Origin: Gammaproteobacteria bacterium
Lineage (GTDB): Bacteria; Pseudomonadota; Gammaproteobacteria; Steroidobacterales; Woeseiaceae
DNA: 43,905 nucleotides
Assembly: GCA_029865385.1 (NCBI GenBank)
Contig: JAOUGX010000021.1
Span: forward strand, 1-43,905
Direction: 5' to 3'
The position numbers and the translations under genes are program-made. A model generated the notes under the pieces. It ran no database searches. It saw only the letters and a list, made by a program, of their open reading frames with translations, and had not been told where the DNA came from. The stretch's first letter is position 1; each line of letters starts with the position of its first letter. Below, in pieces: positions 5,397-17,808 of the stretch.

Positions 5397-5755
5397 CTAA
5401 AAAGCCTTGACCACGCATGCGATTGCCGGGTCTTCCTTGTCCGGGCTGACAGAAAAGCCGAGCGACTTGACGAGTTCGAGCATGCGATGGTTTTCTTTCA
5501 GCACCGACCCCTCGATGCCGTTGGCACCGGCACCCCTCGCAATCGCAAATAGTTGCTGCAACAGCCGGGTGCCGATACCTTGCCCATGCCATCCGTCGGC
5601 AACGACAACGGCAAATTCAAACCAGCCATCCTTCGAGCCCGGTGTGAATCGCGCGACGCCAATCTCGATTTCCCTGCCGTCACGATCGATCGTGGCGATG
5701 AAGGCCACGTTGCGCGGATATTTATTGCGCGTGAACTTTTTGAGCGCCGCGATGT
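5397..5755 (-). pseudogene. GNAT acetyltransferase, 5'-truncated fragment
   Basis: The minus strand encodes the C-terminal two thirds of a GNAT N-acetyltransferase. It has a typical acetyl-CoA-binding motif A (VVADGWHGQGIGTRLLQQL), preceded by GVARFTPGSKDGWFEFA and followed by KENHRMLELVKSLGFSVSP. Recognisable sequence stops at about 5755 (AALKKFTRNKYPRNVAF). Upstream of that the open frame runs into AT-rich DNA holding the promoter and ribosome site of the next, divergent gene, and its only start is a TTG at 5834 without a ribosome site. About 45-50 N-terminal residues usual in this family are missing. I judge it inactive, though a shortened product cannot be excluded. Confidence 0.7.
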
Positions 5756-5787
5756 GGCATCTACCTATACAGATCCACCATACATTA

Positions 5788-5816
5788 GATAATACTAATA
5801 TAATATTCAAGGAGGA
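5788..5816 (+). promoter_or_regulatory. AT-rich leader: -10-like boxes and strong ribosome site for the DUF3365 gene
   Basis: The stretch holds GATAAT (5788-5793), a perfect TATAAT (5799-5804) and AAGGAGGA (5809-5816), the last five bases from the TTG start at 5822. No good -35 box was found. If TATAAT were used, the transcript would begin inside the ribosome site, so GATAAT or an upstream promoter is more likely. The ribosome site is what fixes the TTG start. Confidence 0.45.
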
Positions 5817-5821
5817 AAAAA

Positions 5822-6373
5822 TTGCTGCAACCAAGTCGCGTATTAGACCGTATCGTCGTGCTGATCGCCGTTGCCGTTATATCGGGTGCAGCGTTGGCGA
5901 ACGAAGATGAACTCGCACGCGGCGCCGCGTTGTTATCGCCGCTGAAGAACGATTTGAAGCAGGCTCTGGTTGCCGGGCTCGAGACGGGCCCCGTAAATGC
6001 GATTACCGTCTGCAGAGACCAGGCGCCGATGATTGCAAGTGCCTTGTCCGTGGATGGTGTCGAGATGGGCCGTTCCAGTCACAGGCTGCGAAATCCCGCC
6101 AATCTGGCACCGGACTGGGTGAGTGCCGTTCTTGAGACGTATCAGGCCAATGCAACGGACAGAACCCCACAACTTGTTCGTCTGGAGGACGATCGGCTCG
6201 GCTACATCGAACCGATAATGCTTCAGGGCATGTGCGTGGTCTGCCACGGAAAAGTTCTTGCGCCCGAAGTTGTCGAGCAAATCAGCGAGTCCTACCCCGA
6301 AGATCGGGCCACCGGCTTCGAAGTCGGTGATCTTCGCGGCGTTTACTGGGTGGAATTTCCGGCCAGACAGTGA
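5822..6373 (+). CDS. Exported DUF3365 (Tll0287-like) haem-type sensor protein
   Basis: The protein has 183 residues from a TTG start, set by a strong ribosome site. The N-terminus is a signal peptide (RIVVLIAVAVISGAALA, cleavage near residue 26). The mature part matches the DUF3365/Tll0287-like domain: early ITVCRDQAP, then PDWVSAVLETYQ, then a single c-type haem motif in MLQGMCVVCHG (CVVCH), and the ending GDLRGVYWVEF. Such domains occur alone in the periplasm or as input domains of sensor kinases, probably binding one haem c. A role as a redox or gas sensor is inference. The preceding minus-strand GNAT fragment ends near its promoter, so this gene may have been joined here by a rearrangement. 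Confidence 0.83.
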   Translation: MLQPSRVLDRIVVLIAVAVISGAALANEDELARGAALLSPLKNDLKQALVAGLETGPVNAITVCRDQAPMIASALSVDGVEMGRSSHRLRNPANLAPDWVSAVLETYQANATDRTPQLVRLEDDRLGYIEPIMLQGMCVVCHGKVLAPEVVEQISESYPEDRATGFEVGDLRGVYWVEFPARQ

Positions 6374-6490
6374 ACGTTGGCAATGACGCCCAGAGGCTGA
6401 GCTCGCCTCAGAACATGCCGGGCGACGGCGGGCGGGTCAGAGGGATAGACTCCAGCCGTATCAATTTTTCACATACTATCGGTGGAAATC

Positions 6491-8713
6491 ATGCAGAAGG
6501 CGGCATTGTTGTTCTGTGCAGGTCTCGTATTCCTTCTTGCTACGACTCTGCATGCCCGGGAAGCTGAACATCGGCCCAAAATCGGGTTGGCGCTGAGTGG
6601 CGGAGGAACCAAAGCCGGCGCACATATCGGCGTACTTCGCGTACTCGAGGAAAATCACGTGCCGATCGACTATATCGCAGGCACCAGTGCGGGCGCGATC
6701 ATCGGCAGTTTGTATGCAGCGGGACTGACGCTGGACGAGATCGAGGCAGCCATCGCGGGGATAGACTGGGAGGACATGCTGCAGGATGCACCGCCGCGAC
6801 GCGATCTGCCGTTTCGGCGCAAGAGAGACGATTTCAGTTACCTCGTCAAGTATCGTCCCGGATACAACAATGGCTCGATCGAGTTGCCCATGGGCCTGAT
6901 CCAGGGCCAGAAGGTCACGCAGTTCTTTCGACGATATTTGCAGCCGCATTCGGTATCGCAAGATTTCGATGCATTGCCGATTCCGCTCAGGGTCGTGGCA
7001 ACCGATCTCGTCAGCGGGCAGGCGGTCGTCATCGGATCGGGAGATCTTCCCCTGGCAGTGCGCGCAAGCATGTCGATTCCCGTTCTGTTCGCGCCGGTCG
7101 AAATAGACGGGCGGCGCCTTATCGACGGCGGGCCGTCCAACAACCTGCCTATTGACGTAGTGCGGCAAATGGGTGCTGACATCGTGATCGCAGTGGATAT
7201 CACGGCACCGCTGCTGGCGGAAAACGGGCTCGATTCGGTGCTGGCGGTGGCGGACCAGATGACCAATATCCTGACTCAACGCACCGTTCAGGATCGTGTC
7301 GCCACGCTGACGCCGGACGACATCCTGATCCGACCGAACCTGGAAGAATTCGGCGGAATGGATTTTGACAGCACGCTTGATGTCATCGAGCCGGGTGAGA
7401 GCGCCGCGCGCGAGGTGCAACCCGCTTTGGCGATGCTGTCCATGGATCCGGAAAACTACCGCGTCTATGTCCGTGCGCGGTTAGCGCGGCCGGGTTCGCC
7501 CGAGCAGACGATTCGCGCGATCAACATCAACAATCGTTCCTCGATCAGCACCGAGTCCATCAGAAGCCGACTGGGATTCGAAGTCGGAGACGTCGTCGAC
7601 CAGAACGAAATCGAACAGGGAATAGCACACGTATACGGTCTCGAGCTGTTCGAGCGCATCGACTACCGGATCGTTCCCGGCGAATCCGGGACCGACGTCA
7701 TGGTCGATACCTATCCCAGGCCTTGGGGCCCGAATTATCTGCAGTTCGGCCTGGAGCTCTCGGAAGACTTTTCGCAAGGATCGAATTTCAATATCGGCAT
7801 TGCATACCTGCAGACGGAAGTGAATTCGATGGGCGGCGAGTGGCGCGCCCAGTTCGATTTCGGCGAGCGTCAGGGCTTCAGTCTGGATTGGTACCAACCC
7901 GTCAGCTACCGATCACAATATTTCGTCGAAGCCGAAGCGTTGATCGGGCGCCGCAACTTCCGGTTTTTTGAGCAGGGCGAGGCGCAGGCCGACGTTCGCA
8001 TCGATGGATGGGGCGGCACTTTGTCTGCCGGTACGGAAATCGGCAGATACGGCGAATTCCGCCTCGGATGGAGCCGCTACACGGGTAACGCAAAGGTCTC
8101 GGTCGGGACACTCGACATCCCGGATCCGTCCGTCGAAGCCGGCGAGTTTTTCACGGCGCTCACCTACGATCGAATGGACAATCCGAATTTTCCGCGGCAT
8201 GGCGCTGCGGCAACCGTGTCCGGACATTTTTCGCGCAGCGCCGCTGGAGCAGATGCCGATTTCGAACAAATATCAGGATCGCTTTTTGCCGTCAGAAGCT
8301 TCGGCGACAACTCGATTCTCGCCAGGCTGGAGGGCGGTACGACCTTGAACGATGACGCCCCGCTGCAGAGTCAGTTCCTGCTTGGCGGGCTCGGACGGCT
8401 ATCCGGCTATCCGGCGAACCGCTTTGCCGGGCAGCATTTCGGCGTTGCGTCACTGACAGCCTACCGGCGCCTGAATCGCAACCTGTGGTTGCCAGTCTAT
8501 GCCGGATTCAGTTTGGAAGCAGGCAATGCCTGGGATACCAGAGACCTGGTCGATATCGACGACCTGCGGTTTGCCGGCGCGGCCTATGCGGGAGCGGATA
8601 CGCCGCTCGGGCCGCTCTATCTTGCGTTCGGGCTGGCCGAACACGGCGAAAACACCATCTATCTATATCTCGGCAATCCGTTCGTGTCCGAAGGCGCGCG
8701 GCCACTCGACTGA
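6491..8713 (+). CDS. Patatin-like phospholipase fused to POTRA and outer-membrane beta-barrel (PlpD-type)
   Basis: The protein has about 740 residues. I prefer the ATG at 6491, four bases after GGTGGA, to the in-frame GTG at 6482. A signal peptide ends at ALHAR-like TTLHA. The patatin domain (about 28-330) has the oxyanion loop GGGTKAGAHIG, the nucleophile elbow GTSAG (about 64-68) and the catalytic Asp in DGGPSNN (about 212-214), giving the Ser-Asp dyad. One POTRA domain follows (about 345-405, SISTESIRSRLGFEVGD), then a 16-strand-type Omp85 barrel to the end. This is the architecture of PlpD and type Vd secretion, in which the lipase is exposed or released at the cell surface. The oxyanion loop has Lys-Ala where Arg-Gly is usual. 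Confidence 0.92.
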   Translation: MQKAALLFCAGLVFLLATTLHAREAEHRPKIGLALSGGGTKAGAHIGVLRVLEENHVPIDYIAGTSAGAIIGSLYAAGLTLDEIEAAIAGIDWEDMLQDAPPRRDLPFRRKRDDFSYLVKYRPGYNNGSIELPMGLIQGQKVTQFFRRYLQPHSVSQDFDALPIPLRVVATDLVSGQAVVIGSGDLPLAVRASMSIPVLFAPVEIDGRRLIDGGPSNNLPIDVVRQMGADIVIAVDITAPLLAENGLDSVLAVADQMTNILTQRTVQDRVATLTPDDILIRPNLEEFGGMDFDSTLDVIEPGESAAREVQPALAMLSMDPENYRVYVRARLARPGSPEQTIRAININNRSSISTESIRSRLGFEVGDVVDQNEIEQGIAHVYGLELFERIDYRIVPGESGTDVMVDTYPRPWGPNYLQFGLELSEDFSQGSNFNIGIAYLQTEVNSMGGEWRAQFDFGERQGFSLDWYQPVSYRSQYFVEAEALIGRRNFRFFEQGEAQADVRIDGWGGTLSAGTEIGRYGEFRLGWSRYTGNAKVSVGTLDIPDPSVEAGEFFTALTYDRMDNPNFPRHGAAATVSGHFSRSAAGADADFEQISGSLFAVRSFGDNSILARLEGGTTLNDDAPLQSQFLLGGLGRLSGYPANRFAGQHFGVASLTAYRRLNRNLWLPVYAGFSLEAGNAWDTRDLVDIDDLRFAGAAYAGADTPLGPLYLAFGLAEHGENTIYLYLGNPFVSEGARPLD

Positions 8714-11516: not shown

Positions 11517-12584
11517 ATGCCTGCAACAGCCCCTGACGGCGAACTGGATTCACGAAAGATTCGTCGTGTCGATCCCGGCGTTCTGCGGCAGGCTCCCGAC
11601 GAGTCTGCGTTCGCCAGATATCCGCAATCCTGGTATCTCCTCGGTTCGGCGAAGCAGTTGGCGCGGGGTCCCTTGTCGCGGCAAGTGCTCGGCCTCGATC
11701 TCGTGGCGTTTCGCACCGAATCGGGACGAGTTGTCGTGATGAACAGCCGCTGCTCGCACCTCGGGGCGGACCTGTCACGCGGCAAGGTGGTCGGCGACTG
11801 TATTGAATGCCCGTTCCATGGCTGGCGTTATTCGCCGGATGGGCGCTGCAGCCGCATTCCGAACATGACCTCGATACCCGAGCGGGCACGACAGACTGTC
11901 TACCCGGTTGTGGAGCGGCATGGCTTACTGTTCTTTTTCAACGCGCGTATCCCGTTGTTTCCATTACCTTTTCTGATAGATGACACACCCGCTGATTTCG
12001 TAGCCGCGAAGCCCGTTTCCTTCGTCGCGGATTGCAGCTGGTACATGGTTTCGGCGCACGGTTACGACAGTCAGCATTTTGCAACGGTGCATTCGCGGAA
12101 GCTCCACGGCCCATTGCAAGTGGACTGCCCGGCGCCGTTTGCCCGTCGCTCGCGTTATCGTGCCGATGTGCTCGGCGCTGCTTACTACGATCGACTGCTT
12201 CGCCGCTTTGCCGGTTCGACGGTGGATATATCGATCACCACCTGGGGCGGAACGATCGTAACGATAAGCGGTGCGTTCAAACGCGCGATCAGCCGTTTCA
12301 TGATTTGCCTGACGCCGTTATCCGATGGCAAGACCCGCTGCGACGTCATTGCGTTTGCGCCGCGCGCGAATACGGTCGCGGGCCGCCTGTTCGCACAAAC
12401 CGTCGGCCTGTGGATCCGCAGGCTGTTTACCGGCGCCTACCTGATCGCCGAAACCGAAAGTCTCGGAAGCCCGAGGTACAACCCGCTTAGTCTTGTCCAC
12501 GCGGACAGCGAAATGATCGACTACTTTTGCTGGGCCGCGGAATTGTCCGGTCCGTCGGAAAACCCGTCACATGGAACGGCGTAA
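11517..12584 (+). CDS. Rieske non-haem iron oxygenase, alpha-subunit type
   Basis: The protein has 355 residues. The N-terminal Rieske domain binds a [2Fe-2S] cluster through CSHLGADL (C-x-H) and CPFHGW (C-x2-H), spaced as in the family. The C-terminal domain has HGYDSQHFATVHSRKL, carrying the conserved Asp that links the centres and two His of the 2-His-1-carboxylate mononuclear iron. GAGAGG precedes the ATG. It needs an external reductase, and none is encoded nearby. It is first in a four-gene operon with a SnoaL-like protein, a desaturase and a PAP2/prenyl-synthase fusion, so its substrate is more likely a lipid or isoprenoid than an aromatic. That assignment is inference from neighbours. 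Confidence 0.88.
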   Translation: MPATAPDGELDSRKIRRVDPGVLRQAPDESAFARYPQSWYLLGSAKQLARGPLSRQVLGLDLVAFRTESGRVVVMNSRCSHLGADLSRGKVVGDCIECPFHGWRYSPDGRCSRIPNMTSIPERARQTVYPVVERHGLLFFFNARIPLFPLPFLIDDTPADFVAAKPVSFVADCSWYMVSAHGYDSQHFATVHSRKLHGPLQVDCPAPFARRSRYRADVLGAAYYDRLLRRFAGSTVDISITTWGGTIVTISGAFKRAISRFMICLTPLSDGKTRCDVIAFAPRANTVAGRLFAQTVGLWIRRLFTGAYLIAETESLGSPRYNPLSLVHADSEMIDYFCWAAELSGPSENPSHGTA

Positions 12585-12626
12585 ATCAGTTGCTGAGCGC
12601 CCGGTCCTGATATCTGGAGAACTACA

Positions 12627-13277
12627 ATGAGCTACAAAGCCCCGATGCTCCTGCTGACATCGCTACTATTGATGTCGTTTGCGGGCGCGACCGCACAGGA
12701 GACCGCAAACGATGCTGCCATACAAGCCGCCATAGAGGAAACGCACCGGCAGTTACGCGCATTGAAAGACGGCGCGGAAGCCGCTTTCAACAAGATGGGC
12801 GAGTCCGGCAGCACAGACGACCTCGCGCCGCTCATCGATTATGTACATGACAGTATTGTACTTGTTGCCATGAACGGCGAGACGGTCATCGGAAAGGATG
12901 GCATCCGCGATTACTTCATGCGCACGGTCGGCGGACCCGATCCGACAGTTGCGTCCGTTCATCATACCTTCGACGTGGCGGCGTTAAGCACTCTGTACGG
13001 AGACGACACCGCCGTAGCGCACGGCAGTTCATGGGGTAGGTATAATTTGACGGATGGACTGGCTTTCGAGGTCGACACGTTCTGGACGGCGACGATGGTC
13101 AAAGAAGACGGCCGGTGGTTGTTGGCCAGCTTCCAGTTTGCGCCGAGCATTTTCGAGAATCCATTGCTCAATAAAGCAACGCAAATGATCTATATTTTCG
13201 CGGCCGTCGCAGGATTTCTTGGCCTGCTGCTCGGATTCTGGTTCGGGCGAGTATCCGGCAGAAAAGCAACGGCCTGA
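12627..13277 (+). CDS. Exported SnoaL/DUF4440-like protein with C-terminal membrane anchor
   Basis: The protein has 216 residues. An N-terminal signal sequence (MLLLTSLLLMSFAGATAQ) precedes a coil rich in Ala and Glu, then a SnoaL/ketosteroid-isomerase-like domain (about 45-175) with LAPLIDYVHDSIVLVAMNGE, VIGKDGIRDYFMRTV, and GLAFEVDTFWTATMVKEDGR. A single hydrophobic helix ends the chain (MIYIFAAVAGFLGLLLGFWF) with a basic GRVSGRK tail, so the domain should face the periplasm, anchored at the C-terminus. GGAG precedes the ATG. It lies 42 bp after the Rieske gene and 25 bp before the desaturase. SnoaL-like folds act as isomerases, cyclases or pocket proteins. Which applies is unknown. Confidence 0.8.
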   Translation: MSYKAPMLLLTSLLLMSFAGATAQETANDAAIQAAIEETHRQLRALKDGAEAAFNKMGESGSTDDLAPLIDYVHDSIVLVAMNGETVIGKDGIRDYFMRTVGGPDPTVASVHHTFDVAALSTLYGDDTAVAHGSSWGRYNLTDGLAFEVDTFWTATMVKEDGRWLLASFQFAPSIFENPLLNKATQMIYIFAAVAGFLGLLLGFWFGRVSGRKATA

Positions 13278-13302
13278 AAAAGAGAAATACAAGCGAAGGT
13301 CG

Positions 13303-14235
13303 ATGAAAAACATTGAATCGATTCCCGGTGTACTGAACTCGGTTCTACTTTGCCTGGCGAGCGCCGTGGCCGCGGCTTTGTTGTGGTGTGCGTCGCACAT
13401 GGACTCATGGCCTGCGGTATTGGCCGCTGCCGTCGCATTTTCTTTCGTCAACAACACGCTTTTTTCGCTGTTGCATGAAGGGACACACGGCGTGCTTCAT
13501 CAGAACAAGCGGATCAACGATTGGATGTCGCGATTTGCTGCCTCGTTCTATCCAACTTCTTTTTCGGTGCAACGCGCTTTTCACCTGACGCATCACAACC
13601 GCAATCGGACAGAATTCGAACAGTTCGATTACGTTCGGCCCGGGGATAATCGCTTCCTGAAGTACGCTCAGTGGTACGCGATCCTGACTGGCCTCTACTG
13701 GATCTTTTCGCCGCTTTTCTGTGTGCTTTATTCGCTCGCACCATCGGGTTTTCGCAGTCGCTGGCTTTCCAGCAGGGAATCGACTGTCGGACACCAGACC
13801 GGTGCTGCGGTGTACCTGTCCAGTCTTCGCCAGGTGCCGGTCAATGTCATTCGCGCGGAGACCGCGACGAGCGCTGCGCTACAGGCGTCGCTGTTCCTTT
13901 TGCTGGACCTGAGTGTGTCAGGCTGGGCTCTTTGTTATGGATGTTTTGCCGTCAACTGGAGCGCGCTGCAATATGCAGATCATGCCTGGTCGCCACTCGA
14001 CCGCAGAAACGGCGCATGGAATCTCAAGGTCAATCCGTTGACCAAGCTCCTGTTCCTGAATTACCACGATCATCTCGCGCATCATCGGCACCCCGGCATT
14101 AGCTGGCTTTATCTCCCGCGGCTGGTCGATTCGACGGAGCCGCGGCCGAGCTTTCTGTCAATTTATCTGCGCATGTGGCTCGGGCCGCGGCCGATCAGCG
14201 ATGCCGCTTCCGATTCAATAGCCGATCGTGCTTAG
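13303..14235 (+). CDS. Membrane fatty-acid desaturase / hydroxylase-like protein
   Basis: The ATG at 13303 gives 310 residues and keeps the hydrophobic N-terminus (MKNIESIPGVLNSVLLCLAS); the frame is open further upstream inside the preceding gene. All three His boxes of the membrane di-iron desaturase family are present: HEGTHG (HxxxH), HLTHHNRN (HxxHH) and HDHLAHHRHP (HxxHH), separated by membrane segments. The family introduces double bonds or hydroxyls into acyl chains or carotenoid-type substrates, using oxygen and an electron donor. Fourth of nothing else: it is third in the operon, and its end overlaps the start of the PAP2 fusion gene by 8 bp, indicating translational coupling. The substrate is unknown. 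Confidence 0.87.
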   Translation: MKNIESIPGVLNSVLLCLASAVAAALLWCASHMDSWPAVLAAAVAFSFVNNTLFSLLHEGTHGVLHQNKRINDWMSRFAASFYPTSFSVQRAFHLTHHNRNRTEFEQFDYVRPGDNRFLKYAQWYAILTGLYWIFSPLFCVLYSLAPSGFRSRWLSSRESTVGHQTGAAVYLSSLRQVPVNVIRAETATSAALQASLFLLLDLSVSGWALCYGCFAVNWSALQYADHAWSPLDRRNGAWNLKVNPLTKLLFLNYHDHLAHHRHPGISWLYLPRLVDSTEPRPSFLSIYLRMWLGPRPISDAASDSIADRA

Positions 14236-15712
14236 ACGGCTGTTGCCGTCCATCGGCGTGCGTGCAGTGCCGAAGGGCGCTGCGCTGCGTTCGAACCTGT
14301 TGCTGTCGCTGCAGTTCGCGCTGCTGTTCGGAATCGTTTATGTCGGCGCCGACCTGCTCGGTGGACACCTGACGCAACGTTATTCGGTGGCCTTGCCATT
14401 GGATAGCGGCATACCGTTCGTGCCGCAGATGGCGATCGTGTACCTGTCGATAATTCCGCTAATGATTCTTGCGCCTTTCGTCATGAACACGCCACGGCAG
14501 CTTTTCCCGCTGGTGTTCGTGTTGTCACTCGAGGTACTTCTTGCCGGGTTGATCTTCATCGTGTTTCCAATTGAAGAGATGGCACGGAATCGCGCCGCCA
14601 ATGGGCCAGGTCTGCCGTTTGCCGTCGCCGATACGTTGAATCTGCGTTTTAACTATCTGCCATCCCTGCACGTTGCTTTGTCCGTAACGGTAGCGACTGC
14701 CTGCGCAAAGTCATGCGAATGGCCGGGCAAGGTTTTTTACGGTATGTGGGCTCTGCTCATCAGCGCGTCGTCAGTCCTGACACATCAACACTATCTGGCC
14801 GACGTCGCCGCCGGTGCCATACTGGCCGCGGCCGGAATGTTGCTCGTCTATCCGTGGGTGTCCCGGCCCGACGTCCTGAATGCGTTTCGCGTCGAATGGA
14901 TCTGCGCAGGCGAGTTCCTGACTTTCGCCCGGCGACACCGCCGGTATCTGCTGATTGCCGCAATCATTTATTGGCATGCAATGTTTCGCTGGAGCAAAAG
15001 CCGTGTGCTGCGAGTCGGCTTCTGTCTATTGCAGGTCATCGATGACCTGCTGGATGGCGACAGGGCCTGTGATCGGGAACCTTCGATCGTCGCTGCCGAT
15101 GTCCTGCAGCAACTGGAAACGGGCGATTTCCGCTCTGATCGATTGGGCATTCTCGCGCAGTCGATGGCCACGGAATTATCCCGATTGCAGACAGAAAGCG
15201 ATCGTCCGCTGGCAGATTCAATTGCGCTGATCCGGCACATGATGCTGGATCGCGAACGCGCAAACGACAGGGCGCTTTTCAGTCACCAGGAGTTGCGTCG
15301 TCACCATCGCGTCACGTTCCGCCATTCCCTGAACCTGTTGCTGGTTGCCGTCGGAGCAAAAGCCCGTGCAGACGATGTGCCCGAGCTCGTAGAGGCTTTT
15401 GGCTGGTGTTCGGCCATGCGGGATCTGCGCGAGGATCTCGCGCACGGCCTGGTCAATATTCCAGAAGCCGTGGTTCGGAGCGCCGAATGCGAAGGCGCGA
15501 AGCCGGGCTGTGATGAGAAATTGCTCGGATCAAAGGCCGTGCGCGCATGGCAGGCAGAGGAACTCGATCGAGCTCAGCGCAAGCTGCAGTCCTTTGGTCG
15601 GAGGCGCTGGGATCCTGTCGACCCCGTCGGCAACCGGGTATTGCGCCTTTTTCATCGATCGATTGTGCAATTCGCTTCGCGCATGCAGCGGGACATGATG
15701 CGCGGCACCTGA
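14228..15712 (+). CDS. PAP2-like phosphatase fused to a squalene/phytoene-synthase-like domain
   Basis: This 494-residue protein starts at a GTG overlapping the desaturase gene. Residues about 20-225 form a multi-pass membrane domain with PAP2-type motifs LPSLHVALSV and SSVLTHQHYLADVAAG, most like the branch that includes inositol-phosphoceramide synthases. Residues about 240-490 are helical and soluble, with LLQVIDDLLDGDR (an Asp-rich DDxxD motif) and, about 130 residues later, WCSAMRDLREDLAHGLVNIP, which fits the second Asp-rich motif of squalene/phytoene synthases (RDxxED...G...P). The PAP2 call is strong. The prenyl-synthase call rests on the two motifs, their spacing and helical content. 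The fusion suggests condensation or rearrangement of an isoprenyl diphosphate coupled to dephosphorylation or head-group transfer. Confidence 0.72.
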   Translation: MLRRLLPSIGVRAVPKGAALRSNLLLSLQFALLFGIVYVGADLLGGHLTQRYSVALPLDSGIPFVPQMAIVYLSIIPLMILAPFVMNTPRQLFPLVFVLSLEVLLAGLIFIVFPIEEMARNRAANGPGLPFAVADTLNLRFNYLPSLHVALSVTVATACAKSCEWPGKVFYGMWALLISASSVLTHQHYLADVAAGAILAAAGMLLVYPWVSRPDVLNAFRVEWICAGEFLTFARRHRRYLLIAAIIYWHAMFRWSKSRVLRVGFCLLQVIDDLLDGDRACDREPSIVAADVLQQLETGDFRSDRLGILAQSMATELSRLQTESDRPLADSIALIRHMMLDRERANDRALFSHQELRRHHRVTFRHSLNLLLVAVGAKARADDVPELVEAFGWCSAMRDLREDLAHGLVNIPEAVVRSAECEGAKPGCDEKLLGSKAVRAWQAEELDRAQRKLQSFGRRRWDPVDPVGNRVLRLFHRSIVQFASRMQRDMMRGT

Positions 15713-15743
15713 AAAAGGCCCCCGCAGACTGTGCTGCGGGGGC
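15712..15743 (-). terminator. Rho-independent terminator of the DUF4382 lipoprotein gene
   Basis: A perfect 10-bp stem GCCCCCGCAG/CTGCGGGGGC (15718-15727 with 15734-15743) closes a six-base loop. Read on the minus strand it is followed by CCTTTTTC, the U-tract, so it ends the gene whose stop lies at 15789. The U-tract overlaps the stop codon of the convergent PAP2 fusion gene. In the plus direction no T-run follows. Confidence 0.85.
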
Positions 15744-15788: not shown

Positions 15789-17693
15789 CTATGGTTCGAG
15801 CAGGTAGATACCGATCTTGTATGCCGTGAACACGTTGGTGTCGGCATTGTAGTGCCCGCGCGCATACATCGATCGGGCCGTACTCGCTCCATCCATTTCG
15901 ATCAGCAACGCCTGCACGAAATCGTCGAAGTTCGAATAGAGCTGCAGGCTGTCGGTCGTTTTCACAGCGAACAGTTTGCGGCCCGTCTCGCGTGGCGCGA
16001 TGACGGTACCGGATGGCAAGGTTGTGAGGTCGATCAGTACCGGTCCCTGCTTGATGTGATGGCGTACACCGATGTCCGGATTGTGATTGTCCAGAACCAG
16101 GCCGTCGGTACCGATGCTCAGGAACGGCGCGAGAGTTCCGGCGCTACCCCAACCCACGCCGAGCACGCTGCGGACGTTGGCATAGTCGACTACCGTGCGG
16201 CCCTCGAAATCCGGCGGCGCAGCGCCGAAGGTATACGGGAAGCCGTAGACAACGACCGGCCGTCCTGTGGCCAGCGGGTTCATGAAAAGATTTCCGGTCG
16301 ACACTTCGTAGTTATCCGGATCCGCATCCATGGCAGGACTGGAGCCGGTGCCCGTGAAATCGAAAACCTGCACACGGCGCCGGTCGATGGCATGCAATTC
16401 GATGTCGGTCTGTCCGGGCAGGATGGTGTTGACCAGTCCGGCAAGATGGGTAAGGTGCATGCGCACCGCGCCATTGCTTGCATCGAAATGCACTCGGGCT
16501 GCGTCACTCGCGGTCACGTCACCGCGAATCGTTACTCGCTGGCCGACCGAAATCGCACTGATGTCCAGTCCGGAATTCGGATGCCCGGCCTTGAATACTG
16601 TCGTGTTCGGGCCGATCGTGACTATGACGTCATCGTGGAAGTAGGCGTCGAGTTCGGGGCGAATGATTGTCGCGCCGCGCACCAGCAATTCATTGCCATC
16701 GCGCGCGATAACATTGCCGCGAACGGCGTCCCGGTCCATGCCCGGCACACTGCTGCCGGCCAGCACGATGTTCGCCGTGAATTCGCGTTGGGCAACATTC
16801 AGTGTTCCCTGAGCTACTGTCAGGGTTCCCTGACCGGAAGCGTTCAATGCCCGCAGTCCCTCGACACCGACGTACTCGACATCATTCACTTCAAATGCCG
16901 TCGCATTGCTCACATAGACTTTCATGCGGCCGAAGTCGCCGATTCGGTCGTGGAACGGCCGAATCGCGACGGTATAGAACATCTCGGATTCGTTGGCTTC
17001 GATGAAGCGGCCGCGAACACGGATGTCCTTGGTATCGACCGGATCGATTTCGGCAACGATGAACGGTTCTGCCGTGGCAATCGCCGGAGTAGCTCCGATA
17101 TCGACCGAATGCGATGCGTCCAGGTCGAAGTCGACGGTCAGCAATGACGCACGGCCGCGCGAAACGACCAGTCGGTCGCGATCCGACAGCACAATTTTCT
17201 GCACAACCTGCGCCAGCGGGTTCCCGTCGGCATCGACGACAACAGCCGGTTTGGATTCGCCGCCGGCTTCGACGATGACTTCTGCGTTGCTGTAATCGAG
17301 GCTGAGAGTCCCGGCGACGTATACACCGGGCGGGATGGTGGCTGCCGATACGAACTCGGTCAGATCGACGTAGTCACTGAAGTTGATGCGCGTCTTCCGC
17401 GGTAATGTCTCAACGATCGCGCCGCCCGCTGTTTCCAGCTCGAGTGACAGGACGTCAACCGAGTAATTCAGGAAGTCGCCATCGGCGTCAGTAAAACCGA
17501 CCAGGACCGTGCCGCATTCGGCAGCAGTGGCCGGATCGTCGGGGACACATACGGCTGCCGCCGGTGTTGGCGTTGAGGCGCCGCTGCCGCCGCCGCAACC
17601 GGCGACAAGGATTACCGATAGCACCATGGCTATCCATAGTGAGAGTGTTAACTGGCTGCCGTTGCCTGGCAGGCGCATGTTCGAGAGTTTCAT
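15789..17693 (-). CDS. DUF4382-containing lipoprotein
   Basis: The ATG at 17693 follows AAGGAGATCACG and begins MKLSNMRLPG, giving 634 residues. A signal peptide ends in a lipobox (LVAGC), so the mature protein is a lipoprotein, probably in the outer membrane or periplasm. After a short Gly/Ser/Pro-rich linker there is a DUF4382 domain (about 55-190; VLVGFTDADGDFLNYSVDVL, IPPGVYVAGTLSLDY). The remaining 440 residues are beta-rich with repeated DUF5666-like units (for example VRGNVIARDGNELLVRGATI and ISVGQRVTIRGDVTA). A short internal duplication gives GTLTVAQGTLNVAQ. The function is unknown; the protein is probably structural or surface-exposed. It is monocistronic, with its own terminator at 15712-15743. 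Confidence 0.83.
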   Translation of the reverse strand: MKLSNMRLPGNGSQLTLSLWIAMVLSVILVAGCGGGSGASTPTPAAAVCVPDDPATAAECGTVLVGFTDADGDFLNYSVDVLSLELETAGGAIVETLPRKTRINFSDYVDLTEFVSAATIPPGVYVAGTLSLDYSNAEVIVEAGGESKPAVVVDADGNPLAQVVQKIVLSDRDRLVVSRGRASLLTVDFDLDASHSVDIGATPAIATAEPFIVAEIDPVDTKDIRVRGRFIEANESEMFYTVAIRPFHDRIGDFGRMKVYVSNATAFEVNDVEYVGVEGLRALNASGQGTLTVAQGTLNVAQREFTANIVLAGSSVPGMDRDAVRGNVIARDGNELLVRGATIIRPELDAYFHDDVIVTIGPNTTVFKAGHPNSGLDISAISVGQRVTIRGDVTASDAARVHFDASNGAVRMHLTHLAGLVNTILPGQTDIELHAIDRRRVQVFDFTGTGSSPAMDADPDNYEVSTGNLFMNPLATGRPVVVYGFPYTFGAAPPDFEGRTVVDYANVRSVLGVGWGSAGTLAPFLSIGTDGLVLDNHNPDIGVRHHIKQGPVLIDLTTLPSGTVIAPRETGRKLFAVKTTDSLQLYSNFDDFVQALLIEMDGASTARSMYARGHYNADTNVFTAYKIGIYLLEP

Positions 17694-17808
17694 CGTGATC
17701 TCCTTGATGGATGCGTTCCCTATGGCGCTATAACGCGACCGGCGGCATGTCGTTGACATCGCGAGCAGCAATTTTCGCGTCGCAGGGCTGTACGCAGGAT
17801 TGGAGATC

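Follow-up and report, generated by a model that had tools for sequence, protein, structure and literature searches.

A conserved four-gene operon with a PAP2/synthase-fold fusion gene in a Woeseiaceae genome as a candidate pathway for an oxidised isoprenoid membrane lipid

A four-gene operon (genes A to D, positions 11517 to 15712) was analysed in a 43,905-nucleotide stretch of DNA, hereafter the window (contig JAOUGX010000021.1 of assembly GCA_029865385.1, a gammaproteobacterium of the family Woeseiaceae). With a probability of about one half, the operon encodes the synthesis of an oxidised isoprenoid membrane lipid, for which the gene D protein would make the skeleton and handle its phosphate. 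This reading is based on the conservation of the gene set, the squalene/phytoene-synthase fold of one half of D, the proximity of A to KshA and SdmA, the weak similarity of C to CrtW and CrtR, and invariant catalytic motifs; the overlap of C and D and the expected topology of the PAP2 half of D and of B were also counted in its favour. Such an unusual fusion of two enzymes in a conserved set would mean that a class of membrane isoprenoids has been overlooked in one group of large-genome bacteria. An initial annotation of the stretch knew of no described pathway with this set, and in agreement with it no such set and no PAP2/squalene-synthase fusion was found described in the open-access papers searched, a coverage that leaves out supplements and most subscription papers.

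The four genes are:
Gene A, 11517..12584, + strand: Rieske non-haem iron monooxygenase, 355 amino acids (Pfam Rieske, PDB profile)
Gene B, 12627..13277, + strand: SnoaL-like (DUF4440) protein with an N-terminal signal-like stretch and a C-terminal transmembrane segment, 216 amino acids (Pfam, hydropathy)
Gene C, 13303..14235, + strand: membrane di-iron desaturase/hydroxylase, distantly CrtW/CrtR-like, 310 amino acids (Pfam FA_desaturase)
Gene D, 14228..15712, + strand: PAP2 half and squalene/phytoene-synthase-fold half

The start of gene C was set at the ATG at 13303, within a listed open reading frame (ORF) that extends back to a TTG at 13219, and the start codon of gene D is GTG. The tight packing reported initially was reproduced from the ORF coordinates, with distances of 42 bp between A and B and 25 bp between B and C, an overlap of 8 bp between C and D, and all genes on the + strand.

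Conservation of the four-gene set

From the order of the window, 196 genomes were sampled; with gene D alone as query, 9 of them gave a match, which beyond the window genome covered the PAP2 half only. A pattern-based scan of the contigs of GTDB genomes yielded one full-length relative of D (locus L011, 43% identity), located in a 17-kb locus of 69% GC in a 9-Mb genome (G513) whose record title is Comamonas sp. KCTC 72670. At this locus A, C and D are arranged in a row, followed by a convergent B. Based on the genome size, the GC content of the locus and relatives in its order with genomes of up to 13.8 Mb, the Comamonas label looks wrong, and the genome appears to be that of a mislabelled myxobacterium.

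The C-terminal domain of D is encoded in 36 of the 145 genomes searched in the order of G513 (G513 included). When the search was extended to the phylum level, the count was still 36, of 195 genomes, so that the set there is restricted to part of one order. All 36 genomes also encode B, which shares a contig with D in 33 of them; the distance between both genes is within 6 kb in 32 genomes (within 100 bp in 20) and 14.8 kb in one, while B lies on another contig in three. The initial annotation would have abandoned its proposal if the genes were not found together elsewhere, and they were.

Twenty-one loci out of the 36 genomes were read at length (L011 and L043-L062). On the fetched stretches A was present in 21/21, C and full-length D in 20/21 each and B in 19/21; the tallies of A and C leave out G570, G573, G581 and G585. 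Another 11 loci were short and showed no more than C, D and B; the edge of the locus truncates C in each of them, and B was found in seven. C and D overlap in 16 of 20 relatives and are separated by gaps of about 20-65 bp in the remaining four, with the starts as chosen in the analysis. At five loci (L054, L057, L058, L060 and L062) an extra gene is inserted between D and B and B is still near, which argues for a functional link. Among the ORFs listed, none outside the four genes (and ORFs overlapping them) has relatives in more than six other loci. The occurrence of the same genes together in a far-off lineage indicates that their grouping is more than chance.

Ratios of nonsynonymous to synonymous substitution rates (dN/dS) were calculated for pairs from the lineage of G513, the window sequence having no close pair. 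For three close pairs from the order of G513, values of 0.12-0.24 were obtained for A, C and D and of 0.24-0.40 for B; for the more diverged pair L059/L056, in which L056 is a reduced locus, A gave 0.33, B 0.59 and the synthase half 0.46. Phylogenetic trees of PAP2 (87/90) and B (83/78) group the window with sequences from the order of G513, at values below the star level of the tool. The PAP2 tree contains two outgroup rows cut by rough coordinates, one of which (L148) is read in the wrong frame, its stop codons being represented by X; no weight is given to these rows. The tree of C does not decide whether the window belongs with the sequences from the order of G513 or with those from its own order, although the highest identity of the window sequence is 59%, to one of the former.

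Plasmid records (4) gave matches to the PAP2 half only, and no relative was found among 148 pattern matches in viral contigs. A stand-alone, divergent SQS_PSY-like gene of about 509 codons at another site of genome G513 (L078:844-2373, - strand), by eye without a PAP2 half, was rejected as a member of the set; it adjoins a P450-like gene.

The C-terminal half of gene D

The following features were assigned to this half of the protein:
C-terminal half, residues 216-494, 14873..15709, + strand: squalene/phytoene-synthase fold (Foldseek, Z score, hhalign)
First Asp-rich motif DDLLDGD, residues 272-278, 15041..15061, + strand: D272, D273, D276 and D278 invariant in 25/25 sequences
Second Asp-rich motif RDLREDLAHGLVNIP, residues 398-412, 15419..15463, + strand: R398, D399, E402 and D403 invariant in 25/25 sequences

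Judged by predicted fold, sequence profiles and motifs, the C-terminal half of D is a remote relative of squalene and phytoene synthases (SQS/PSY) in which the metal motifs are kept and the pocket is changed. The model of D has a mean predicted local distance difference test (pLDDT) score of 80.3. Structural matches were taken from the best 50, and families absent from these are not thereby excluded. In a Foldseek search with residues 215-494, HpnC (4hd1) was the only match at E<=0.001 (E 7.8e-4), and its alignment reached a Z score of 18.2 with a root mean square deviation of 3.8 over 251 aligned residues at 18% identity. Since helical bundles can reach a Z of about 14 by chance according to the tool's note, this value assigns the all-helical squalene-synthase fold to the model. 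Z scores of 16-17 were obtained for CrtM-like enzymes, 16.6 for LvqB4/CqsB4, 14.5 for human squalene synthase and about 14 for class I cyclases.

At the sequence level, hhalign against 13 true SQS_PSY sequences gave a probability of 94.8% over 130 columns, which include the second motif, placed opposite NILRDVREDLERGRVYLP. Of 24 relatives of the C-terminal half of D, 13 were matched by the SQS_PSY profile at E<=1, the best at 1.9e-5; the window's own sequence was missed. The D loci of G572 and G557 reached 22.5-22.8 bits against a cut-off of 26; as neither the window half nor these two loci attain the curated cut-off of SQS_PSY (PF00494), the half is regarded as a remote relative and not as a member of this family. 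This profile, which misses D in the window genome, revealed no further SQS_PSY gene there. The fusion of PAP2 with a prenyl synthase claimed initially is retained as a fusion; fold, motifs and the profile matches of relatives point to a divergent relative of head-to-head (squalene/phytoene) synthases, not to a chain-elongating prenyl synthase. Head-to-head synthases are treated in PMC7839719.

HpnC, HpnD, HpnE and CrtM/phytoene synthase resemble D in their fold, in both Asp-rich motifs and in weak profile matches. They differ from D in that the latter is fused to PAP2 and has the Asn, Arg and Tyr at the second motif replaced; an Arg preceding the first motif, placed by eye, is replaced as well. 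In contrast to the pathway of HpnC, HpnD and HpnE, no HpnE-like oxidoreductase is encoded among the four genes. CqsB4, LvqB4 and NzsG, to which D is likewise similar, are not known to be fused to PAP2.

The PAP2 half of gene D

The N-terminal half of D comprises:
N-terminal half, residues 1-211, 14228..14860, + strand: PAP2 six-helix domain of the AUR1/SMS/LpxE type (Pfam, predicted structure)
PAP2 catalytic residues H148, H188 and D192, 14669..14803, + strand: invariant in 25/25 D rows and 12/12 PAP2 rows

In the Pfam search D matched PAP2 with 32.4 bits (cut-off 27.2) and PAP2_3 with 27.6 bits (cut-off 27), and together with the His/His/Asp residues this places the half in the PAP2 superfamily. 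Modelled alone it reached a pLDDT of 88.2. SMSr (3.3e-3), LpxE (6.6e-3) and AUR1 (8.4e-3) were on top of the Foldseek matches, none of them at E<=0.001. VIA-align gave Z scores of 14.7 for the inositol-phosphorylceramide synthase AUR1 (190 aligned residues), 13.6 for the sphingomyelin-synthase-related SMSr (186), 13.5 for LpxE (150) and 12.3 for PgpB, the alignments with AUR1 and SMSr spanning all six helices. The transferase and phosphatase types are nearly tied in these comparisons of predicted structure, and the half looks as much like a head-group transferase of the AUR1/SMS type as like a phosphatase. With AUR1, SMSr and LpxE it shares the six-helix PAP2 fold and the PSLH and HxxxD catalytic residues, whereas the fusion to a terpenoid-synthase fold sets D apart. 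AUR1 is also its best match in sequence, a weak one (E 0.01), and the likeness to an AUR1-type phosphotransferase is one of predicted fold. In the topology suggested by hydropathy, the N-terminus and the synthase half are cytosolic, and the active site of PAP2 would be exposed to the periplasm, on the same side as the domain of B.

The same PAP2 subfamily was also seen in G090 (L008:1459-2847, - strand), in a protein of 462 amino acids in which it follows an apparent fatty-acid-hydroxylase domain of the sterol-desaturase type.

Genes A, B and C

Gene A matched Pfam Rieske with 74.6 bits (cut-off 20.3; E 5.9e-21). The ligands of the Rieske cluster (C79/H81 and C98/H101) and of the iron site (D184, H187 and H192) are invariant in 19/19 rows, so that A has both the [2Fe-2S] ligands and the 2-His-1-Asp site of a Rieske oxygenase. 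In the profile search against the PDB the best match was KshA (4qdc, 7.5e-29), followed by SxtDIOX (2e-26), with SxtT also near. The SdmA model matched 19/19 members of A; the window sequence scored 49.4 bits against the equivalog cut-off of 600 and is therefore not assigned as a 4beta-methylsterol monooxygenase SdmA. With KshA, SdmA and SxtT, A thus shares the Rieske and mononuclear iron residues and profile matches, and differs by this low SdmA score and by an operon without a reductase gene.

For gene C, the FA_desaturase profile was matched with 86.9 bits (cut-off 29.7), and the ten His residues checked were invariant in 13/13 rows, which places C in this superfamily. The profiles of CrtW and CrtR matched weakly in 13/13 members. 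Against the equivalog cut-off of 350 bits for the beta-carotene ketolase CrtW, scores of 31.9 and 29.4 were obtained, so C is not assigned as CrtW. C and CrtW/CrtR have in common the membrane di-iron fold family and the conserved His residues; they differ in that C scores 29-32 bits and has no recognised carotenoid gene as a neighbour in the window. When the PDB was searched with the sequence of C, five matches were returned, all at E>=0.79 and none a desaturase. The two oxygen-dependent enzymes proposed initially, encoded by A and C, are supported at the sequence level by profiles over the Pfam cut-offs and by the metal-ligand residues kept in both.

The following segment was assigned to gene B:
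C-terminal transmembrane segment of gene B, residues 188-206, 13188..13244, + strand: hydropathy 2.19, basic residues after it

B matched DUF4440 with 25.9 bits (cut-off 25.2), a domain present in 16/16 members at E<=0.01. SnoaL_2 was scored with 23.9 bits, under its cut-off of 27, and the SnoaL_3 and SnoaL_4 models also stayed under their cut-offs with the window protein. A hydrophobic N-terminal stretch, the C-terminal transmembrane segment and the basic tail fit a periplasmic domain. The initial description of B as a membrane-anchored, periplasmic SnoaL-like protein is therefore kept as to anchor and topology, and SnoaL-like applies by way of DUF4440, with SnoaL_2 under its cut-off. The operon contains no polyketide gene, which bears on a role of B as a SnoaL polyketide cyclase.

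Proposed pathway

From gene order, domains, conservation of the set, catalytic motifs and predicted folds, we infer the following chemical steps. The cytosolic C-terminal half of D would bind Mg2+ via the two Asp-rich motifs, ionise one or two prenyl diphosphates and build a skeleton, which would most likely be a C30/C40 product of head-to-head condensation or the corresponding cyclopropylcarbinyl diphosphate of the presqualene type. The periplasm-facing PAP2 half may then strip the remaining phosphate or exchange it for a phospholipid head group. C as a membrane di-iron enzyme and A as a Rieske oxygenase would act on the isoprenoid from the cytosolic side by hydroxylation, oxidation or desaturation, and B, the membrane-anchored pocket protein in the periplasm, may bind or finish the product on the side of PAP2. 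PAP2, B and C are probably an older lipid-finishing module, which the PAP2-synthase fusion and A would have extended to a complete short pathway.

In a bolder form, which we consider distinctly unlikely, D would be a single-chain phosphoterpenoid synthase that makes a C20-C40 terpenol or its diphosphate with its cytosolic half and adds a phospholipid-derived head group at the outer face in the manner of AUR1, and that together with A, C and B would provide a new class of oxidised phospho-terpenoid membrane lipids in one order. If true, this would be a lipid class parallel to sphingolipids and hopanoids in one order of large-genome bacteria.

The PAP2-B-C module in the order of the window

Five genomes of the window's order (G006, G018, G032, G160 and G166) encode a stand-alone PAP2 protein adjoining B. 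C is adjacent in four of them and 5 kb away in G006, and the B proteins end, by eye, in a transmembrane-like stretch. The SQS_PSY profile detected one gene each in G018 and G032, on another contig, and none in G006, G160 and G166. Since this profile misses D in the window genome, a divergent synthase could be present in these genomes; a close relative of the synthase half of D would have appeared in the search with D in the window's order. PAP2-B-C appears to be a module able to work without a squalene/phytoene synthase, to which the window-type operon adds A and the fused synthase half.

In the stretches read, PAP2-B-C is located beside one to four radical-SAM-like genes in L144 (G018), L145 (G166), L146 (G032) and L147 (G160), and in places beside a GH3-family gene, N-acyltransferase-like genes and a gene for a 224-residue membrane protein without Pfam match. 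L143:1-10540 (G006) contains PAP2, B, a Rieske/VanA_C oxygenase, a radical-SAM-like gene, a P450-like gene and two desaturases. A Pfam scan of ten module-neighbour proteins from L143 and L146 confirmed one each of radical-SAM, GH3, Rieske/VanA_C and desaturase and gave no match for six; the confirmed radical-SAM protein has a B12-binding match just under the cut-off. The remaining labels of module neighbours in L143-L147 are presumed. The several radical-SAM-like genes beside the module suggest a wider lipid chemistry. The Rieske gene of L143 was rejected as an orthologue of A, because it matches A in the Rieske domain only and carries VanA_C, and the PAP2 genes of L148 and L149 were set aside as more distant and, by eye, in a different context.

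Evaluation of the isoprenoid reading and its alternatives

Several results weigh against an oxidised isoprenoid lipid as the product. Within the class (321 sampled genomes) and phylum (398) of the window, the set was found in the window genome only (1/321 and 1/398). The C-terminal half of the window's D alone gave no Pfam match up to E<=10, and a PDB sequence search with the profile of its family returned seven matches, all at E>=0.59, with no squalene synthase at E<=10, so that the relation to these synthases is carried by the fold, by hhalign and by the Pfam matches of relatives. None of the 25 D sequences retains several residues typical of the SQS/PSY family. In the hhalign alignment, Ser395 stands in place of the Asn before the second motif, and Leu408 and Asn410 in place of the Arg and Tyr of GRxY; Gln269, placed by eye, takes the position of the Arg before the first motif. 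The Arg before motif 1 and the Asn of motif 2 are invariant in the 13-row SQS_PSY comparison set. With these replacements the chemistry of D may differ. At L056 (genome G587, 5664-8134), A, B and the synthase half are kept, and C and the PAP2 half of D are gone; the stand-alone synthase half, whose ATG start overlaps the 3' end of A, has both Asp-rich motifs, so the two halves of D are separable. The start of this half resembles the first codons of C in L059. The lack of a detected SQS_PSY gene in G006, G160 and G166 indicates that the substrate of the PAP2-B-C trio need not be isoprenoid. The initial proposal of a new terpenoid or modified lipid is accordingly kept in part: isoprenoid chemistry is favoured by A and D and, weakly, by C, and the trio in genomes without detectable SQS_PSY would allow a non-isoprenoid substrate.

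The strongest rival, held to be unlikely on balance, is a sphingolipid- or acyl-lipid pathway around an AUR1-like transferase; it owes its strength to the occurrence of PAP2-B-C in genomes where no squalene/phytoene synthase was detected. In such a pathway the PAP2 half would act as an AUR1/SMS-like transferase or a phosphatase for a sphingolipid-like lipid or a glycerolipid, C would desaturate or hydroxylate the acyl chain, and the synthase-like half would only prenylate or have another role. The top rank of AUR1 and SMSr in the VIA-align comparison of the PAP2 half, SMSr as the first match by Foldseek, the trio in five genomes of the order, three of them without detectable SQS_PSY, and the apparent fatty-acid-hydroxylase fusion of the same PAP2 subfamily in G090 are consistent with it. 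However, the phosphatase LpxE comes almost level (Z 13.5; in second place by Foldseek), and in sequence AUR1 is only weakly similar (E 0.01). C is closer to carotenoid ketolases and hydroxylases, A resembles oxygenases of the steroid type, the Asp-rich metal motifs are retained in the synthase half, and the silence of the SQS_PSY profile in the related genomes is not decisive, as it misses D too.

A prenyltransferase pathway, in which the synthase-like half would move one prenyl group to a small acceptor and the other genes would decorate the product, is regarded as still more doubtful. LvqB4 and CqsB4 are near-equal fold matches (Z 16.6), and the review PMC7466098 presents NzsG and CqsB4 as phytoene-synthase-like prenyltransferases with two Asp-rich motifs, a feature of CqsB4, LvqB4 and NzsG that D shares. 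As described there, however, these enzymes come from carbazole clusters, unlike D; the operon has no gene for the synthesis of an aromatic acceptor, and beyond the four genes and the ORFs that overlap them none of the ORFs listed has relatives in more than six other loci. The PAP2 half and B would, moreover, place part of the pathway at the outer face of the membrane.

Least probable of all is a class I terpene cyclase, in which the C-terminal half would cyclise one prenyl diphosphate and PAP2 would clear or complete the alcohol: D272-D276 with the later metal motif could serve and Z reaches about 14, but bacterial enzymes of the SQS/PSY type reach higher values (Z of about 16-18, with 14.5 for human squalene synthase), and the second motif fits the D-x-x-E-D of squalene/phytoene synthases and not the NSE triad.

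Flanking regions

The single possible promoter noted initially was not recovered, since a scan of the region for sigma-70-like promoters gave 0 sites with 1.6 expected, a result that leaves other promoter types possible. Behind gene D one element was assigned:
10-pair GC-rich hairpin, 15718..15743, no strand assigned: in the stretch that separates D from the convergent gene, resembling a terminator on the - strand (consensus scan)

With 7 terminator-like sites in the region and 5.1 expected, the evidence from this hairpin is weak. The convergent gene downstream (15789-17771, - strand, 660 amino acids) encodes what is presumably a lipoprotein-like, DUF4382-like protein, which is not found beside DcyD in five same-family loci. 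About 100 bp upstream of the operon lies a divergent gene, which we take to be D-cysteine-desulfhydrase-like (DcyD-like). Nine neighbour proteins (DcyD included) and A-D were compared with these five same-family loci of DcyD homologues, one of which is only 4.9 kb long; DcyD alone was common to them, so that neither a recent gain nor a loss of the operon is demonstrable. In 7 of 60 other same-family genomes searched, the DcyD-like gene has a counterpart with 63-73% identity, and the others match more weakly. Based on these counterparts, contamination was rejected and the contig was accepted as part of the genome.

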